Below are positions 40,245 through 48,098 of a DNA stretch of 48,098 bases, piece by piece. This DNA comes from Candidatus Gastranaerophilales bacterium (GTDB taxonomy: Bacteria > Cyanobacteriota > Vampirovibrionia > Gastranaerophilales > Gastranaerophilaceae), in NCBI GenBank assembly GCA_947624645.1, contig CANQLG010000014.1:1-48098 (forward strand), given 5' to 3'. Made by a program: the position numbers and the translations under genes. The stretch's first letter is position 1; each line of letters begins with the position of its first letter. The notes under the pieces were generated by a model. That model did no database searches, was not told where the DNA came from, and worked only from the letters and a program-made list of their open reading frames with translations.

Positions 40245-42185
40245 ATGTATCAAGAGGATAAACTTGTGGTAATAGAAGAAAAAGAGTTAAGAAAAGCTAA
40301 GAAATATATAGATGAAGATTCTGATAGTAAAATTACATATACTTTATTATCACGATTAAATGATTCTAAAAATTCAAAAGTTGAACGTTTATACATTTAT
40401 AATTCTATTAAAAATAAACTCTCAAAATTTTCATACAATGATATTGAAAATGGTATAATGTTATATTGCTTAACTGATTATAATTGTAGTGTATCTTCCT
40501 ATGATGTCGAAAAAGCCAGAGAAGTTGCGAGAATACTAGCATCATCAAAACTTTCAACCGATTTAAAAACTATAATAGAATTTTTTGAGTCTTTATTGGA
40601 GCAAGATAGTAAAAATGAAAATGGAATAGTATTTACCCCACAATATATAGCGAAATACATAGTTAATGGGATACTTCCTACTATATTTTCAAGCAAAAAA
40701 TCACCTTCAATTATTGATCCCGGGTGTGGATGCGGTATATTTCTTGTTACAGCGGCGGAAATAATATTAAATACTACTAATAAATCCATTGACACAATCA
40801 TTAAAGATTGTATCTATGGTATTGATATTTTAGAAGATAATGTACGACGCTGTAAACTGGTACTTAAACTTTTAAGTGCAAAACATGGTGGTAACTTTGA
40901 GATTATTCAACCAAATATAATTTGCGAAGATAGTCTTAAGATTAATTGGAATAAAGTTTTTAATATAGAATCATTTGATTGTGTTATAGGAAATCCACCA
41001 TATGTAAACCCACATGATATGGATAAAGAAACGGTTAATTATTTAAAAAAGAATTTTTATTCAACACAAAGTGGTGTTTTTAATATCTTCTATGCCTTTA
41101 TAGAAAAAGGAATGAGTGAATTAAACCCCGAAGGTATGCTTAGTTATATAATTCCAAATAATTTTCTTACAATTAAATCTGCCATGAGATTACGTGAATA
41201 TCTCCAAAAAAATTTATTTATCAAAAGTATTCTTGATTTTGGGGACAATATGGTGTTTAAACCAGTTAGAACATATAATTGCATAGTCCAATTATGTAGA
41301 AAAAACAATACCGCTTTTGAATATTATGTACTCCCCAAAGTAGATAATGTGGAGATTGCAATTTCAAATATATTTTTTGATAGTATGGAAACGAATATAC
41401 TAGATAAAAACGGTTGGAAGCTTGTTGACAAAAAAACCCACAATAATTTACTGAAAATTGAAAATCAACTTGTATCTATAAAAAACTTTATACGTACAGG
41501 TATTGCAACGTTGTGTGATAATGCCTATATCGTAGAAAAAGATAACTTAGGATATTATAAAATAATAAATTCAAAAAAAATATATATTGAACCTGATTTA
41601 ATTAAAATATTATACAAAATTCCTGATTTAAAACTATACGATAATATAGAAGATGCAAAACGGTATATTATTTTCCCATACATAAAAACTAAAATTGGTT
41701 ATAAATTATTAAACGAGAAAATATTTCGTTCAAATTATCCAAAAACATACGAATGTCTTAAAAAACAACGTGATAAACTAGACTCTAGGGATAAAGGAAA
41801 AGGAGCACATCATGGTTGGTATGCATATGGAAGAACTCAAGGACTAAATAAATATGGAAAAAAATTATTATTTCCAACATTTGCCAATAAACCAAAGTTC
41901 ATGTATGCAGATAATGAAGACGCCTTATTTTGTAATGGATATGCAGTATTTGAAAATGAAAGATATGAACTTGACATATTATCTAAAGTATTAAATTCAA
42001 AAATAATGGATTATTACATTTCAAATACAAGTTATTCAATAGAAGGTGGATATTATTGTTATCAAAAAAAATATGTTGAACGGTTTTCATTACCTTGGCT
42101 TTCAGAAGATGATTTATCATTCATTCGCAAAGCATCAAAAGATAAATTAGATATATATCTGTGGAAATTATATGAACTCGAATAA
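40245..42185 (+). CDS. N6-adenine DNA methyltransferase, Eco57I/TaqI-like (restriction-modification)
   Basis: 646 residues. Motif X lies in VFTPQYIAKYIV; SAM-binding motif I is DPGCGCGIFLV (D158); the catalytic motif IV is GNPPY (N250-Y253); PEGMLSYIIPNNFL and FGDNMVFKPVRTYNC are typical of the Eco57I/gamma class. The C-terminal 250 residues (from FIRTGIATLCDNAYIVE, with FANKPKFMYADNE and LNSKIMDYYIS) form a TaqI-like target recognition domain. No PD-(D/E)XK or HSDR-like nuclease segment is fused, so it is a methylase rather than a type IIG fusion. The presumed endonuclease gene is convergent, 15 bp away. AAGGAT precedes the ATG. The recognition sequence cannot be predicted here. Confidence 0.88.
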   Translation: MYQEDKLVVIEEKELRKAKKYIDEDSDSKITYTLLSRLNDSKNSKVERLYIYNSIKNKLSKFSYNDIENGIMLYCLTDYNCSVSSYDVEKAREVARILASSKLSTDLKTIIEFFESLLEQDSKNENGIVFTPQYIAKYIVNGILPTIFSSKKSPSIIDPGCGCGIFLVTAAEIILNTTNKSIDTIIKDCIYGIDILEDNVRRCKLVLKLLSAKHGGNFEIIQPNIICEDSLKINWNKVFNIESFDCVIGNPPYVNPHDMDKETVNYLKKNFYSTQSGVFNIFYAFIEKGMSELNPEGMLSYIIPNNFLTIKSAMRLREYLQKNLFIKSILDFGDNMVFKPVRTYNCIVQLCRKNNTAFEYYVLPKVDNVEIAISNIFFDSMETNILDKNGWKLVDKKTHNNLLKIENQLVSIKNFIRTGIATLCDNAYIVEKDNLGYYKIINSKKIYIEPDLIKILYKIPDLKLYDNIEDAKRYIIFPYIKTKIGYKLLNEKIFRSNYPKTYECLKKQRDKLDSRDKGKGAHHGWYAYGRTQGLNKYGKKLLFPTFANKPKFMYADNEDALFCNGYAVFENERYELDILSKVLNSKIMDYYISNTSYSIEGGYYCYQKKYVERFSLPWLSEDDLSFIRKASKDKLDIYLWKLYELE

Positions 42186-42200
42186 ATAATTTACAATACT

Positions 42201-43022
42201 CTAGCAGATGTTATTAAAATTATATCGACATGAATAAATTTCTAAAATATCACTTACAAAAGTTTGAAAATTTAAATTAGCATATTCAATATCAAAATTT
42301 TTAGATATAAAACCAGCTTGTTTAAGTTCTGTACTATTTTTAAAAAGATATGGTTGAGGTTGATTAAAATCAACTATTAAGAGAGCACATCTCTCATATG
42401 CATAGTTTTCATCTCCAATATTTCTATTATTAATAGAATTGAAAAAACTTATATACTTTTCTATATTTGTTTGTTTCTTTTTAAAACCAACAATGTTACG
42501 TTTAACTAATTCATCATCATACTCATGAACTGGAATTAAATATACTTCACCCAAAACAATATTGGGATAACGCATGTGTAAGTTTTGTGCTTCAGCAAAG
42601 GTTCTTTCAAATAATGTATCTGAATTTTTTGCAAGACTACTCATCTGACTCCTAACATTAATTACTAATGTATTAGTTGTAAATTCAAAACCATATTCAT
42701 CAATTTTGTTTTCAAATGCTAAAGGTCCCCAGTTAATTGACGTTGAAATTTTTTGAATATTAGATGGTACAATGCATATATCCTGATCTTTCTGTTTTAA
42801 AAAACCGGCCATTTTTAATTCCGGTTTTGTGTCACCCAAATGAGGAAATATGTTCAATGGATTAACACCGGCTTCTATAAATGATTTTTTTACTGCATCA
42901 TGAATAAGGTTAATTAATGCAGATGATCTTATCATTGATTCTTTTCCTTGCATACCTCCACTAATAATAGAATCTTCTATTCGTTTTTTAAATTGAAATA
43001 ACTGTTCATCAATATATGTCAT
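42201..43022 (-). CDS. candidate type II restriction endonuclease
   Basis: 273 residues, not assigned to a named family. Evidence is context: directly convergent with a DNA methylase and 46 bp downstream of a controller-type HTH gene on the same strand, the standard C-R order. Possible PD-(D/E)XK elements are KQKDQDICIVP (about 75-85, an acidic residue before a hydrophobic strand) and a following strand TLVINVRSQ in place of the usual (D/E)xK. The N-terminal helices (QFKKRIEDSIISGGMQGKES) are charged. LGEVYLIPVHEYDDELV is a further acidic strand. It has no signal peptide or membrane span. Another cassette role, such as an accessory protein, is possible. Confidence 0.6.
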   Translation of the reverse strand: MTYIDEQLFQFKKRIEDSIISGGMQGKESMIRSSALINLIHDAVKKSFIEAGVNPLNIFPHLGDTKPELKMAGFLKQKDQDICIVPSNIQKISTSINWGPLAFENKIDEYGFEFTTNTLVINVRSQMSSLAKNSDTLFERTFAEAQNLHMRYPNIVLGEVYLIPVHEYDDELVKRNIVGFKKKQTNIEKYISFFNSINNRNIGDENYAYERCALLIVDFNQPQPYLFKNSTELKQAGFISKNFDIEYANLNFQTFVSDILEIYSCRYNFNNIC

Positions 43023-43068
43023 ATAAAATAGCTTTGCTCCAAGTATATTACGTTAATACATATAAAGC

Positions 43069-43275
43069 TTATAATCCTGTAAATAGCTCACTGATGGATA
43101 TCGAAAATCCATCGGCAATTTTTTTGATATTCACAATAGAAATGTTTCGTTTCCCATTTTCAACAGAAGCATAGTAAGTTCTATCCATACCAATTTTTAA
43201 TGCAAATTTTTCTTGACTTAATCCTGTATATTTTCTTAGTTTGCGTATACGATTGCCTAATTCTTGGGTAATCAT
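43069..43275 (-). CDS. XRE-family controller protein of the restriction-modification cassette
   Basis: 68 residues, one HTH_3 domain: LGNRIRKLRKYTGLSQEKFA, then the recognition helix region MDRTYYASVENGKRNISIVN. It matches in size and motif the C proteins that time endonuclease expression, which act as dimers on operators upstream of their own gene. AGAGGA lies 7 bp before the ATG. Its promoter (43298-43326) has a GTATAC-containing spacer related to further sites upstream (43366-43436). The putative endonuclease follows 46 bp downstream, probably in the same transcript. Expected behaviour: activation of C and R after a lag; not shown by sequence. Confidence 0.82.
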   Translation of the reverse strand: MITQELGNRIRKLRKYTGLSQEKFALKIGMDRTYYASVENGKRNISIVNIKKIADGFSISISELFTGL

Positions 43276-43478: not shown

Positions 43479-43493
43479 AAAGCTACTTAGTTT
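43479..43493 (+). repeat. right copy of a direct repeat flanking the restriction cassette
   Basis: AAAGCTACTTAGTTT, matching the copy at 40030-40044 in 14 of 15 positions. It overlaps the stop codon of the LOG-family gene (43492-43494), as would be expected of an insertion at a gene's 3' end that leaves the gene intact. Confidence 0.4.
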
Positions 43494-44142
43494 AAGTATT
43501 TACAGTTTCGTTTTCATTAATTAAATTTAATAAATCGGATTCGTTGTCAACGGTTTTATATAAAGCTTCAGGCGGACATTTTATAAGTCCTGATTTATAT
43601 AATTTTTCATATTGAGTTGTAAGTCCTTTAAAAAATTCTTTCCCGACCAAAATCACCTGTTTTTTATTTTCCGGTTTCCCATAATAATTTTTAGCGATTA
43701 GTGTTGCTGCTTCTTGAATAGTAGATACACTACCGGGAAAAACAACAATAGTATTTGCTATATCAGCAAATTTTTCAATTCTTTCAGCTTCGCTATTAGT
43801 TGCTGTTAAGGGTATGCAATTTTCTAAATCCTCATCTCCCCAAAGGGGATTTGCGATGATTGCCAAATTCTGCAATGGTTTATTTTGCTCATCTCTTTTT
43901 GAATACTCTTGACCTGCTTTATATGCACTACCCATTATACCTGAATTTCCGCATCCATGTACTATGTTCTTTCCTGACAAAATAATTGCTTTTGTGATAT
44001 TAGAACACATTTCCATATATTTTAATATTTCATCATTGGATTTAGAACTGCCAAGAATTGCAATAGTATTGGCTTTTGATTGAGGCGAGTAATATTTTTC
44101 AGATATAGTTTTAGGTATATTTGCTTTAAATGAAATTTGCAT
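43492..44142 (-). CDS. LOG-family (TIGR00725-like) nucleotide-binding protein
   Basis: 216 residues. N-terminal MQISFKANIPKT is a lineage-style leader. Rossmann motifs follow: TIAILGSSKSNDE, VHGCGNSGIMGSAYKAG (normally GGGxxGxMG) and VVFPGSVSTIQEAA (normally PGGxGTxxE). These are the landmarks of LOG/lysine-decarboxylase-like phosphoribohydrolases and related predicted nucleotide-binding proteins. The changed glycines (PGSVST for PGGxGT) may mean altered or lost activity. AAAAGGG precedes the ATG at 44142. Flanked by the restriction cassette on one side and a tRNA fragment on the other, it is probably a remaining native gene between two insertions. Confidence 0.78.
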   Translation of the reverse strand: MQISFKANIPKTISEKYYSPQSKANTIAILGSSKSNDEILKYMEMCSNITKAIILSGKNIVHGCGNSGIMGSAYKAGQEYSKRDEQNKPLQNLAIIANPLWGDEDLENCIPLTATNSEAERIEKFADIANTIVVFPGSVSTIQEAATLIAKNYYGKPENKKQVILVGKEFFKGLTTQYEKLYKSGLIKCPPEALYKTVDNESDLLNLINENETVNT

Positions 44143-44197: not shown

Positions 44198-44213
44198 ATA
44201 TAGATATCTATAT
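44198..44213. promoter_or_regulatory. 16-bp perfect palindrome upstream of the LOG-family gene
   Basis: ATATAGATATCTATAT, its own reverse complement, lies 56 bp before the ATG of the LOG-family gene and 64 bp from the tRNA fragment. Candidate operator or chance palindrome in AT-rich DNA. Confidence 0.3.
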
Positions 44214-44276
44214 GCAATCTGCCCATTAGAAGTAAAGAAACAACTACAATATGATTTATTTAAAACAATCAAAAAA

Positions 44277-44339
44277 CGGAAAAGGTGGGATTCGAACCCG
44301 CCGAATTTACTTGATTATATTGATACGACTGATTTCCAG
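44277..44339 (-). pseudogene. 3' fragment of tRNA-Ser(GGA), probable attachment-site copy
   Basis: On the minus strand the fragment starts in the anticodon loop (CTGGAAA, anticodon GGA), then TCAGT (3' half of the anticodon stem), a degenerate variable region, the T-arm GCGGGTTCGAATCCCAC (one C-A mismatch) and the acceptor strand CTTTTCC with G73, followed by T6. G73 and GGA indicate serine. The 5' half (a GGAAAAG strand, D-arm and 5' anticodon stem) is absent from the adjoining DNA. A break at the anticodon loop is typical of tyrosine-recombinase integration sites. Confidence 0.72.
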
Positions 44340-44552
44340 TTTTTTCGTATTAATATTAACTTTTTTTAAATCAAATTTCATGTGGCTTGAACCTGAAAAA
44401 AATTCCTAGATTTTATTTTTCAAGCTATATGGGTTTTGTTGACAGAAATAAAACTCTTTGAAGTGTATAGGCTATGATATTTGTCTCCTTTCTTTCAAGC
44501 TAAAATTTATGCAAATATTTATGTTATAATATTTCCAGCAAAAGGGTACGAA

Positions 44553-47264
44553 ATGACTCCGGAAGAAAAGGTAAGGATTGAGATTGATAAAATGCTTGAA
44601 CAAGCAGGCTGGGTTGTTCAAGACAGGTCTGAATTAAATATCAGAGCTTCATTGGGAGTCGCAATAAGAGAATTTGTTATGAAAGATAACGGTGAGTCAG
44701 ATTATCTTTTATTTGTAAACGGAAAAGCTGTCGGAGCTTTAGAGGCAAAAAAAGCAGGATATACACTAAGCGGTGTTGAAACCCAATCCCAAGGTTATGC
44801 GTGTAATTTACCTGAAGGTGTCAGATGTTATAGAATGCCTTTGCCCTTTGTATATGAAAGCAATGGTTCTGAAATTTATTTCAGGGATTGCAGAGATAAA
44901 ATTTGCCGTTCAAGAAAGCTTTTTGCTTTTCATAAGCCCGAAACACTTTTGGAACTGATAACAAATGAAGATACTTTAAGAAATACACTTATGACCTTAC
45001 CGGAATTGAATAAAGAAGGTTTAAGAAATTGCCAAATTGAGGCAATAGAAGGTCTTGAGAAATCCTTAAAAAACAACAAACCTCGTGCATTAATTCAAAT
45101 GGCGACAGGGGCAGGCAAAACTTTTACAACATGCAATTTTACATACAGATTACTTAAATACGCAAAAGCAAAAAGGATTTTGTTTTTAGTTGACAGAAAT
45201 AATTTAGGCGAACAAACGAAGAAAGAATATGAACAGTTTAAGCCAAAAGGCGAGAACAAAGCCTTTACTGATATCTATATAGTTCAACATTTGCAGCATA
45301 ATAAAATCGATAAAGATGCAAAAATTGTAATAACAACAATTCAAAGACTTTATTCTATGTTAAGAGGGGAAGAAGATTATGATGAAGCAAACGAAGAAAA
45401 TTCGGCTTTTGAATACAACTCATCTATCGGAAAACCGAAAGAGGTTACATATAATAAAAATTTACCAATAGAATTTTTTGATTTTATTGTTGTAGATGAG
45501 TGCCACAGGAGTATTTACGGTGATTGGCGTCAGGTTTTAGAATATTTTGATGCTTTTACAATAGGTCTTACGGCAACTCCATCAAAGCAAACTTTGGGAT
45601 ATTTTAACAGTAATTTGGTTTCGGAATATCCATATCAACGCTCCGTCGCAGATAAAGTAAACGTTGGATATGAAATATATTCTATTAGAACAGATGTAGG
45701 CGAAAATGGAGGAAAAATAAATAAAGGATTCAGCGTTCCTGTTCGCGATAAAAAGACACGAAAACAAACTTATGAAATGCTTGATGAAGATTTGGAGTAT
45801 AAAAAACCTGATTTAGACAGAACCGTTTTTGTACCCGACCATATAAGAGCGGTTATTCAATGTTATAAAGATACGATTTTCACCGAACTTTTTCCCGAAC
45901 GGGAGCAAACTTGGATTCCTAAAACATTGATATTTGCAAAAGATGACAGCCACGCAGAAGATATTGTAAGAATAACAAGGGAAGTTTTTAATAAAGGGAA
46001 CGATTTTTGCAAAAAAATTACTTACAATGTTTCCGGAATTAAAGCAAAAGATTTAATTGCCGAATTTAAAACATCACCTGATTTCAGAATAGCGGTTACT
46101 GTTGATATGATTGCAACGGGTACGGATATAAAACCGCTTGAAGTTGTAATGTTTATGAGAGATGTTCATTCAGAGCTGTATTTTGAGCAAATGAAAGGTA
46201 GAGGCTGCCGAACAATTAATAATACCGACTTACAGCAAGTTACTCCGAATGCTGAAGTTAAAAACAGATTTTATTTAATTGATGCAGTAGGTGTTACGGA
46301 AAGTAAAAAGTCAGCTTCGCAGCCTCTTGAAAGAAAAAGAACGGTATCTCTTAAAAAACTTATGGAAGATGTAGCGGTAGGAAAAGTCGATGATGACACA
46401 TTAAGCTCTTTAGCAGGCAGAATTTCAGCTATTAATGCAAATATAGATAGTGATGACAATAAAAAAGTTATTGAAATGACTGGAGGAAAAACACTTTCGG
46501 CTATTGCAAACGATATTTTAAATACCATTGATTTCGACAAAACAGAAAACATGAGCGAAGAGGAAATTCTGGATATTAAAGACGAGGCGGTTAAGCCGTT
46601 TTTTGAACCGGCATTCAGAAGACTTGTTCTTGAACTTAAAGATAAGTCTAAACTATATATAGATGAACTGACTCCTGCAGTTATTATTTCATCCGAATTT
46701 AGTGTTCAAAACGCAAACGAACTTACTACAAACTTTAGCTCATTTATACAGGCAAACAAAAATGAAATTGATGCCCTATCCATTATTTATAATAAACAAT
46801 ATAAAGAAAGACATCTTACTTATGAAAAAATAGAGGAATTGCATAATAAACTCTCTGCCCAAATGCCTCCTTTAGAAACCGTCAATTTGTGGAGAGCATA
46901 TCAACTTTTGCAAAAAGATAAAGTACAAAATGTCAAATCTCCCGAAAAACTTTTAACAAATATTGTTCAGCTAGTTCGCTTTGCGATAGGGCAAGATGAA
47001 AAACTTGAAGATTTTTCCTCTGTTGCAAATTCAAGATTTGAACTTTGGAAAGGAAGACAGATTAAAAGAGGAATTGAATTTACATCAGAGCAACAACAAT
47101 GGCTTGAAGAAATTAAAAATTATATTATTGCAAATGCATATATGCAATTAAATGACATTCAAGAATATATGGGCCATAAAGGCGGAATAATAAGAGCAAA
47201 ACAAGTTTTCGGAGCCGAACTTAATAATATTCTAGATGATTTATCAAATGCTTTAGTGGGATAA
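44553..47264 (+). CDS. hsdR: type I restriction endonuclease R subunit-like protein (DEAD/DEAH helicase)
   Basis: 903 residues. The N-terminal nuclease domain has ESDYLLFVNGKAVGALEAKK, with D50 and E64-x-K66 as the PD-(D/E)XK core. The SF2 translocase follows: Walker A MATGAGKTFTT (183-193), DECH (315-318), GLTATPS and motif VI EQMKGRGCRTI. The C-terminal region (about 640-903) is helical, as in the EcoEI/HsdR C-domain. It should cut or translocate unmethylated DNA with HsdM and HsdS, but neither is in the window. AAAGGG lies 6 bp before the chosen ATG; an upstream in-frame ATG at 44481 lacks a ribosome-binding site. It lies on the element side of the tRNA fragment. Confidence 0.9.
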   Translation: MTPEEKVRIEIDKMLEQAGWVVQDRSELNIRASLGVAIREFVMKDNGESDYLLFVNGKAVGALEAKKAGYTLSGVETQSQGYACNLPEGVRCYRMPLPFVYESNGSEIYFRDCRDKICRSRKLFAFHKPETLLELITNEDTLRNTLMTLPELNKEGLRNCQIEAIEGLEKSLKNNKPRALIQMATGAGKTFTTCNFTYRLLKYAKAKRILFLVDRNNLGEQTKKEYEQFKPKGENKAFTDIYIVQHLQHNKIDKDAKIVITTIQRLYSMLRGEEDYDEANEENSAFEYNSSIGKPKEVTYNKNLPIEFFDFIVVDECHRSIYGDWRQVLEYFDAFTIGLTATPSKQTLGYFNSNLVSEYPYQRSVADKVNVGYEIYSIRTDVGENGGKINKGFSVPVRDKKTRKQTYEMLDEDLEYKKPDLDRTVFVPDHIRAVIQCYKDTIFTELFPEREQTWIPKTLIFAKDDSHAEDIVRITREVFNKGNDFCKKITYNVSGIKAKDLIAEFKTSPDFRIAVTVDMIATGTDIKPLEVVMFMRDVHSELYFEQMKGRGCRTINNTDLQQVTPNAEVKNRFYLIDAVGVTESKKSASQPLERKRTVSLKKLMEDVAVGKVDDDTLSSLAGRISAINANIDSDDNKKVIEMTGGKTLSAIANDILNTIDFDKTENMSEEEILDIKDEAVKPFFEPAFRRLVLELKDKSKLYIDELTPAVIISSEFSVQNANELTTNFSSFIQANKNEIDALSIIYNKQYKERHLTYEKIEELHNKLSAQMPPLETVNLWRAYQLLQKDKVQNVKSPEKLLTNIVQLVRFAIGQDEKLEDFSSVANSRFELWKGRQIKRGIEFTSEQQQWLEEIKNYIIANAYMQLNDIQEYMGHKGGIIRAKQVFGAELNNILDDLSNALVG

Positions 47265-47301
47265 ATGTAAAAATAACTTTACATTATGATGTCGTTTTAT
47301 A

Positions 47302-47330
47302 TTGACATTGGGTTTTAAAAATGCTACAAT
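47302..47330 (+). promoter_or_regulatory. near-consensus promoter of the HTH-Panacea gene
   Basis: TTGACA (47302-47307), a 17-bp spacer and TACAAT (47325-47330): the best promoter match in the window. It is followed by AGGAGG at 47338-47343 and the ATG at 47350. Confidence 0.8.
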
Positions 47331-47349
47331 AATAATAGGAGGCTCCCCT

Positions 47350-48098
47350 ATGTATAAAATATTAAAAAAACTGCGTGAACAACGTAAATGTTCACAAGAA
47401 GAAGTTGCGGATGTTATAGGTATTTCAAGACAAACATATAATAAGTATGAAAAAAACGGCGGTATTTCCGATTTAACCGTAGTTATGAAACTTGCTGATT
47501 TTTTTGACGTTGATTACACCTGCATAATTGAAGATAAAATGCCGAAAAATACAACATATAATATTGTTGGAAAACAAGAACAAAACGAAGACAATGATAT
47601 AAGAATTGATATTCCGATTGAGAACATAGAAAAATTTAAACAGGTATTTTTATATATATTAAATAAAATCGGTGCAAAACCTAATGTCGGGCAAACAGTT
47701 CTTTATAAACTGTTATATTTCATTGATTTTGATTATTATGAACTTTTTGAAACTCAATTAATGGGATTAAAGTATATAAAAAATAATTTTGGTCCGACAC
47801 CTGTTGATTTCGCAAAAATAACAAAAGAAATGGAAAAAAACGGAGACATTGAAGAAATAAAAACAAAATACTTTAACAAAGATATGACAAAATATCTTCC
47901 TCTCTCCGAACCCGATTTAACGGTATTATCAGCAAGAGAACTTGCACATATTGATAATATTTTAGCAAAATATTCGGATAAAACGGCAAAAGAGTTGTCG
48001 GATTATTCTCATAAAGATATCCCGTGGATTGCAGCCAATGATAGGGAAATAATTGATTATGAAGCAGTATTTTACAGAAATGCCGATACTTCGGTAAG
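47350..48098 (+). CDS. HTH plus Panacea (SocA-like, DUF4065) antitoxin-type protein, cut by window end
   Basis: At least 249 residues, continuing beyond the window. Residues 1-60 are an HTH_3 DNA-binding domain (LKKLREQRKCSQEEVADVIG, SRQTYNKYEKNG). After a linker, the Panacea domain begins near residue 98: YILNKIGAKPNVGQTVLYKL, then YFIDFDYYELF and YIKNNFGPTPVDF, and LSEPDLTVLSARELAHID follows. In other systems Panacea proteins neutralise diverse toxins and may act with proteases (SocA). AGGAGG is 6 bp before the ATG. An HTH-Panacea antitoxin usually represses its own promoter. The toxin may follow past the window end; none is seen before it. Confidence 0.85.
   Translation, partial: MYKILKKLREQRKCSQEEVADVIGISRQTYNKYEKNGGISDLTVVMKLADFFDVDYTCIIEDKMPKNTTYNIVGKQEQNEDNDIRIDIPIENIEKFKQVFLYILNKIGAKPNVGQTVLYKLLYFIDFDYYELFETQLMGLKYIKNNFGPTPVDFAKITKEMEKNGDIEEIKTKYFNKDMTKYLPLSEPDLTVLSARELAHIDNILAKYSDKTAKELSDYSHKDIPWIAANDREIIDYEAVFYRNADTSV

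Follow-up and report, generated by a model that had tools for sequence, protein, structure and literature searches.

The stretch of DNA analysed here (the window, 48,098 bp, the whole of contig C14 of a Candidatus Gastranaerophilales genome) breaks off inside a type I restriction-modification (R-M) operon that carries toxin-antitoxin (TA) genes between its subunit genes. With a probability of roughly 0.7, the locus is a type IB-like R-M operon into which an autoregulated module of an HTH-Panacea antitoxin (PanA) and a HigB-like toxin is built; this module probably acts as a second, growth-arresting layer. The gene order, the HsdR and HsdM motifs, the pairing of PanA with the toxin, the predicted RelE/HigB fold of the toxin, the TA promoter together with the dyad of relatives, and the exchange of genes in this slot are all shown. 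A combination of type I restriction with a toxin-antitoxin layer had been proposed in a first-pass annotation of the window and is supported.

A type I operon across a contig boundary

The operon begins with hsdR (44553 to 47264, forward strand), which encodes a 903-residue EcoAI/EcoEI-like (type IB-like) protein with HSDR_N, ResIII and EcoEI_R_C domains. Its nuclease and helicase motifs (DYLLF..GALEAK, GAGKT, DECH, TATP and QMKGRGCR) are intact. The HTH-Panacea gene panA follows (47350 to 48098, forward strand), and domain matches bear out the original call of both genes. The window ends within panA. Its final 77 bp (48022 to 48098, forward strand) are identical, by sequence comparison, to the end of contig C39 (20043-19967, minus strand) in the same draft assembly of 71 contigs, an identity best taken as an assembler overlap. 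The Panacea reading frame continues unbroken across the join and reaches its stop codon 25 bp further on, in C39, where its homologues also terminate, giving a protein of 257 amino acids.

Four more genes follow on the minus strand of C39. A 125-residue toxin (C39:19958-19581) overlaps panA by 17 bp and precedes a 245-residue membrane protein with hydrophobic ends (C39:19584-18847), a 421-residue HsdS (C39:18862-17597; Methylase_S, E 1.9e-41) and a 484-residue HsdM (C39:17610-16156; N6_Mtase, E 5.2e-73). The full order is hsdR, panA, the gene of the RelE/HigB-fold toxin, the membrane protein gene, hsdS and hsdM, every gene being intact, and the HTH-Panacea/HigB-like module plus the membrane protein fill the cargo slot that separates hsdR from hsdS. 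The features that define type I R-M genes occur together in one operon: the HsdR motifs, DPACGTGG and NPPF in HsdM, and two target-recognition domains in HsdS. Judged by sequence, this is a complete type IB-like operon of the form hsdR-cargo-hsdS-hsdM, with translocation, cleavage and m6A methylation as its predicted activities. The toxin gene, membrane gene, hsdS and hsdM overlap in series (by 4, 16 and 14 bp), which suggests that hsdS and hsdM are probably co-transcribed from the TA promoter.

The reported lack of hsdM and hsdS was an artefact of the contig edge, since both genes follow on C39 after panA, the toxin gene and the membrane gene; the further reading advised for hsdM, hsdS and a toxin recovers all three past the window end. 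An hsdM-hsdS pair and a toxin directly downstream had been expected to reduce the locus to an ordinary mixed island. They are present, yet that description does not quite fit, because the TA genes are embedded between R and S inside the hsd operon and the content of the slot is swapped among relatives.

The join of C14 to C39 is based on the contig overlap, on relatives and on flanking repeats, not on reads. An assembly chimera, with C14 and C39 not adjacent and the operon artificial, could be suspected in a 71-contig draft whose break falls exactly here. It is nevertheless very improbable, given the exact 77-bp overlap that keeps panA in frame, the same gene order on a single contig in a genome of another genus (G139: hsdR-PanA-toxin-DUF2513-hsdS-198aa-hsdM), and direct repeats of 89 bp on either side of the operon, of which C14 and C39 have one each. 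The left repeat (44211 to 44299, minus strand) consists of a tRNA-Ser 3′ end and the 65 bp downstream of it, and the right repeat (C39:15835-15923) is the 3′ end of an intact tRNA-Ser(GCU) (L004:15725-15814). The two are identical at 88 of 89 positions, share the same orientation and lie outside both ends of the operon. They bound a 7.9-kb unit that contains the R-TA-S-M genes only, and no integrase lies between them. A search of relatives for an empty insertion site found none; there, the Log gene and tRNA-Ser occur in different surroundings.

Beside the left repeat, positions 44300-44390 look like an old tRNA remnant, for which ARAGORN makes no call; part of this segment (44318-44388) recurs at 83% identity upstream of the Log gene of genome G363. 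In the window, a Log-like gene (lysine decarboxylase fold) occupies 43492-44142, and several of its homologues in relatives contain one internal TAA. Just upstream, PADLOC models identify a type II R-M system (40245-43275) composed of a methylase (40245-42185, forward strand), a restriction enzyme (42201-43022, minus strand) and its own control (C) protein (43069-43275, minus strand).

The antitoxin, its promoter and the toxin

PanA contains an HTH_3 domain (E 1.3e-15) and a SocA_Panacea domain (PF13274, E 3.7e-18). Antitoxins of this kind, HTH-bearing Panacea (DUF4065) proteins, are known from PanAT systems (PMC8832971, PMC10440598), in which, as here, the HTH-Panacea antitoxin adjoins a small toxin gene. 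The present pair differs in being embedded in an hsd operon, and its HigB-like toxin may be among the 88 published toxin-Panacea combinations.

The promoter of panA (TTGACA-17-TACAAT, 47302 to 47330, forward strand) has a degraded dyad, TTTACATTATGATGTcgt, just upstream. It had been singled out as the best promoter in the window; it ranks first in the scanned region, whereas across the window it is one of five 11/12 matches. TTGACA is found upstream of PanA at 66 of 81 loci, where shuffling gives an expectation of 3.85. Relatives have the dyad TTTACAT-N4-ATGTAAA beside PanA; as TTTACA-N6-TGTAAA it is perfect at five loci, against none in 1620 shuffles that preserve base composition but not dinucleotides. 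Of the copies that are embedded or close, those of G208 and G123 match it fully and that of G139 has one mismatch; in this genome the right half is degraded (ATGTcgt). PanA autoregulation through its HTH and the dyad is likely. The spacing after hsdR follows the cargo: 84-89 bp for PanA cassettes, which have their own promoter, versus 1-9 bp for other cargos.

The partner of PanA emerges from a PanA-alignment scan of one genome per species, from which the best 80 loci were kept. These come from Gastranaerophilales, Spirochaetes, Patescibacteria, Nitrospirae, Elusimicrobia, Planctomycetes and others. Since a homologue of the 125-residue toxin lies directly downstream of PanA at 71 of these 80 loci, usually overlapping it by 8-35 bp, the 125-residue protein can be taken as the partner. 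There are 72 such toxin ORFs in all, one locus having two pairs. As in PanAT systems, a SocA_Panacea antitoxin and an adjacent small toxin gene are conserved together across lineages. A toxin beyond the window had been offered as one possible target of the Panacea protein, and the overlapping gene on C39 answers to it.

Searches with the toxin against Pfam, NCBIfam and PADLOC profiles gave no significant match, and a single-sequence search of the PDB returned nothing. A profile of 51 toxin sequences matched HigB-2 in the PDB (E=0.0014). The AlphaFold model (pLDDT 91, pTM 0.85) has RelE and HigB2 as its top Foldseek matches, and VIA-align superposes it on HigB2 (5mje) with Z 10.2 and an rmsd of 2.3 over 97 residues. 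The toxin is predicted to have a RelE/HigB fold, closest to HigB2, and a fold would now be assigned to a widespread Panacea-paired toxin missed by the three sets of profiles. Residues K67, R86, Y104 and K106 are invariant in the 51 homologues and would fit a basic RNase site. The predicted fold is shared with the toxins of HigBA2 and RelBE at identities of 10-20%, but the antitoxin here is an HTH-Panacea protein, not HigA or RelB.

Exchange of cargo among relatives

Relatives with close HsdR (66-97%) and HsdM (75-98%) retain the arrangement R, slot 1, S, slot 2, M, with different slot contents. Between hsdR and hsdS (slot 1), the PanA-toxin pair is found in this genome, G139 and G208; DUF2513 in G139 and G105; an AAA_15/OLD-like ATPase in G158; DUF2806 in G120, with a homologue in G240; a weak Abi_2-like match in G367; and DUF3800 with another protein in G294. 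Between hsdS and hsdM (slot 2) lie small proteins of 173-199 amino acids (G139, G158, G120), DUF2971 (G294) and, in a more distant operon, DUF6414 (G313). At the DNA level, this genome (G000) and G367, the closest of the relatives, are 93.7% identical as far as the hsdR stop codon, the cargo is unmatched, the match resumes in the middle of hsdS, and identity is 94.4% from the 3′ end of hsdS through hsdM. Recombination within hsdR, hsdS and hsdM appears to swap cargo and specificity together.

Variable ORFs in the R-S and S-M slots alongside conserved R and M genes recall Campylobacter. There, rlo ORFs between hsdR and hsdS and mlo ORFs between hsdS and hsdM were reported in C. jejuni in 2005, as described in PMC5183652, and they occupy the same two slots as the cargos of the Gastranaerophilales operons. 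The rlo genes belong to another phylum and, in the papers covered, include no Panacea/HigB-like pair. The Gastranaerophilales operons offer a natural cargo-swapping series in an uncultured gut lineage, with close hsdR and hsdM genes around at least six different cargos, and the other slot cargos are candidates for new defence genes.

The majority of PanA-toxin pairs do not lie beside hsd genes, so the TA module can do without a type I system. Where the two do meet, the association recurs: hsdS occurs within 4 kb of PanA at seven loci (G139 among them), against none in an equal length of farther flank. The arrangements vary, PanA and toxin preceding hsdM and then hsdS at L034 and L083, and following hsdS at L059 and L102. 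As far as these sequences go, the link between PanA-toxin pairs and type I operons is recurrent, not obligatory. In G208, the match to the toxin ends after about 78 residues (L113 9330-9593, G208:C109), hsdS and hsdM are absent, and an ORF for a transposition-protein-like ATPase comes next on the other strand, the result of either an insertion within the toxin gene or a chimeric assembly. PanA and hsdR remain there beside the broken toxin gene, and thus the toxin is not always kept.

Function of the module and known systems

In the preferred reading, PanA would bind and neutralise the toxin and would repress its own promoter through its HTH and the dyad. Loss or titration of PanA, on phage takeover or on loss of the locus, would free the toxin, which would then cleave mRNA on ribosomes and stop growth. 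The outcome would be a second, abortive layer behind restriction, together with addiction, which would keep the operon in the genome. The main competitor, less probable but to be taken seriously, grants the TA genes no defence role of their own: they would be selfish or neutral cargo that stabilises the hsd module by addiction, or that simply landed in a tolerant slot. The prevalence of pairs unlinked to hsd, the free exchange of slot content, the tRNA-Ser repeats that bound the module in the manner of a mobile unit, and the G208 locus with its broken toxin and retained panA are all consistent with such cargo; the proximity to hsdS that recurs in distant phyla, and the defence-like families (Abi_2-like, OLD-like ATPase) of the slot-mates in relatives, argue against it.

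Closer functional coupling to the R-M enzyme seems doubtful. The toxin or PanA might monitor the condition of the R-M complex, such as its inhibition by a phage anti-restriction protein, and the toxin might be released only then. Such a guard would accord with the location of PrrC inside an hsd operon (PMC12707154), with the proposal that Panacea is a sensor (PMC10440598) and with the recurrent closeness to hsdS and hsdM, but most genomes have the pair without hsd genes, and a module that has an antitoxin and a promoter of its own can stay silent without the R-M complex. Equally tentative is the idea that PanA is a built-in controller of R-M: with an autoregulated promoter placed after hsdR and before the overlapping genes that end in hsdS-hsdM, the levels of PanA and toxin would determine how much restriction there is relative to modification. 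If so, phage disturbance would both free an mRNA-cleaving toxin and alter methylation, one regulator coupling restriction to growth arrest. An HsdR without M and S that the Panacea protein keeps in check, the other target suggested at first, is favoured by adjacency within the window only and is improbable in the extreme. The downstream hsdS and hsdM stand against it (unless the contig join is wrong), as do the close HsdRs of G105, G158, G120, G367 and G240, which have no Panacea protein, and the fact that across phyla Panacea retains the toxin, not HsdR. HsdR alone as the Panacea target was rejected on account of these downstream genes and the conserved PanA-toxin pairing.

The locus joins a small set of toxins or TA pairs built into type I operons, so far DarTG2 and PrrC, and extends that set to Panacea/HigB. 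DarTG2 lies inside a type I R-M system of EPEC, in the RptR-RMS-DarTG-M48 island (PMC12255303). As here, a complete TA lies between type I subunit genes, and the site has been described as a possible hotspot for the recombination of defence systems (PMC12255303). It differs in that the TA does not have a RelE/HigB fold and is located between hsdS and hsdR, and in that the regulator RptR lies upstream of the entire island, whereas the antitoxin HTH and promoter are internal here. PrrC in EcoprrI (type IC) is likewise a toxin gene within a type I hsd locus and a second line of defence (PMC12707154). PrrC, however, is one anticodon nuclease that the R-M complex itself keeps silent, in contrast to the separate antitoxin with its own promoter found here. 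A PrrC-type anticodon nuclease was considered and rejected for the present pair: PanA and the toxin lack ABC-ATPase and anticodon-nuclease domains, and a separate antitoxin is present.

The first-pass suggestion that the combination is perhaps undescribed holds at most for the type of TA in this slot and for the lineage, since TA pairs or toxins inside type I operons were already known (PMC12255303, PMC12707154, PMC5183652). A search for literature on Gastranaerophilales with R-M or TA systems returned nothing on point. As far as the literature was searched, two things are new: a Panacea/HigB-like pair placed between R and S, and the series of cargos in Gastranaerophilales.

Beyond cellular genomes, a plasmid search with the toxin gave no match, and one with PanA gave only one 21%-identical MqsA-type protein. 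An archaeal gut virus of Methanobacteriales (BK063677.1) carries, at L171 1605-2490, a distant toxin homologue (34%) overlapped by a 170-residue gene (phrog_1281), close to the integrase; these genes are possibly the same sort of pair on a provirus.
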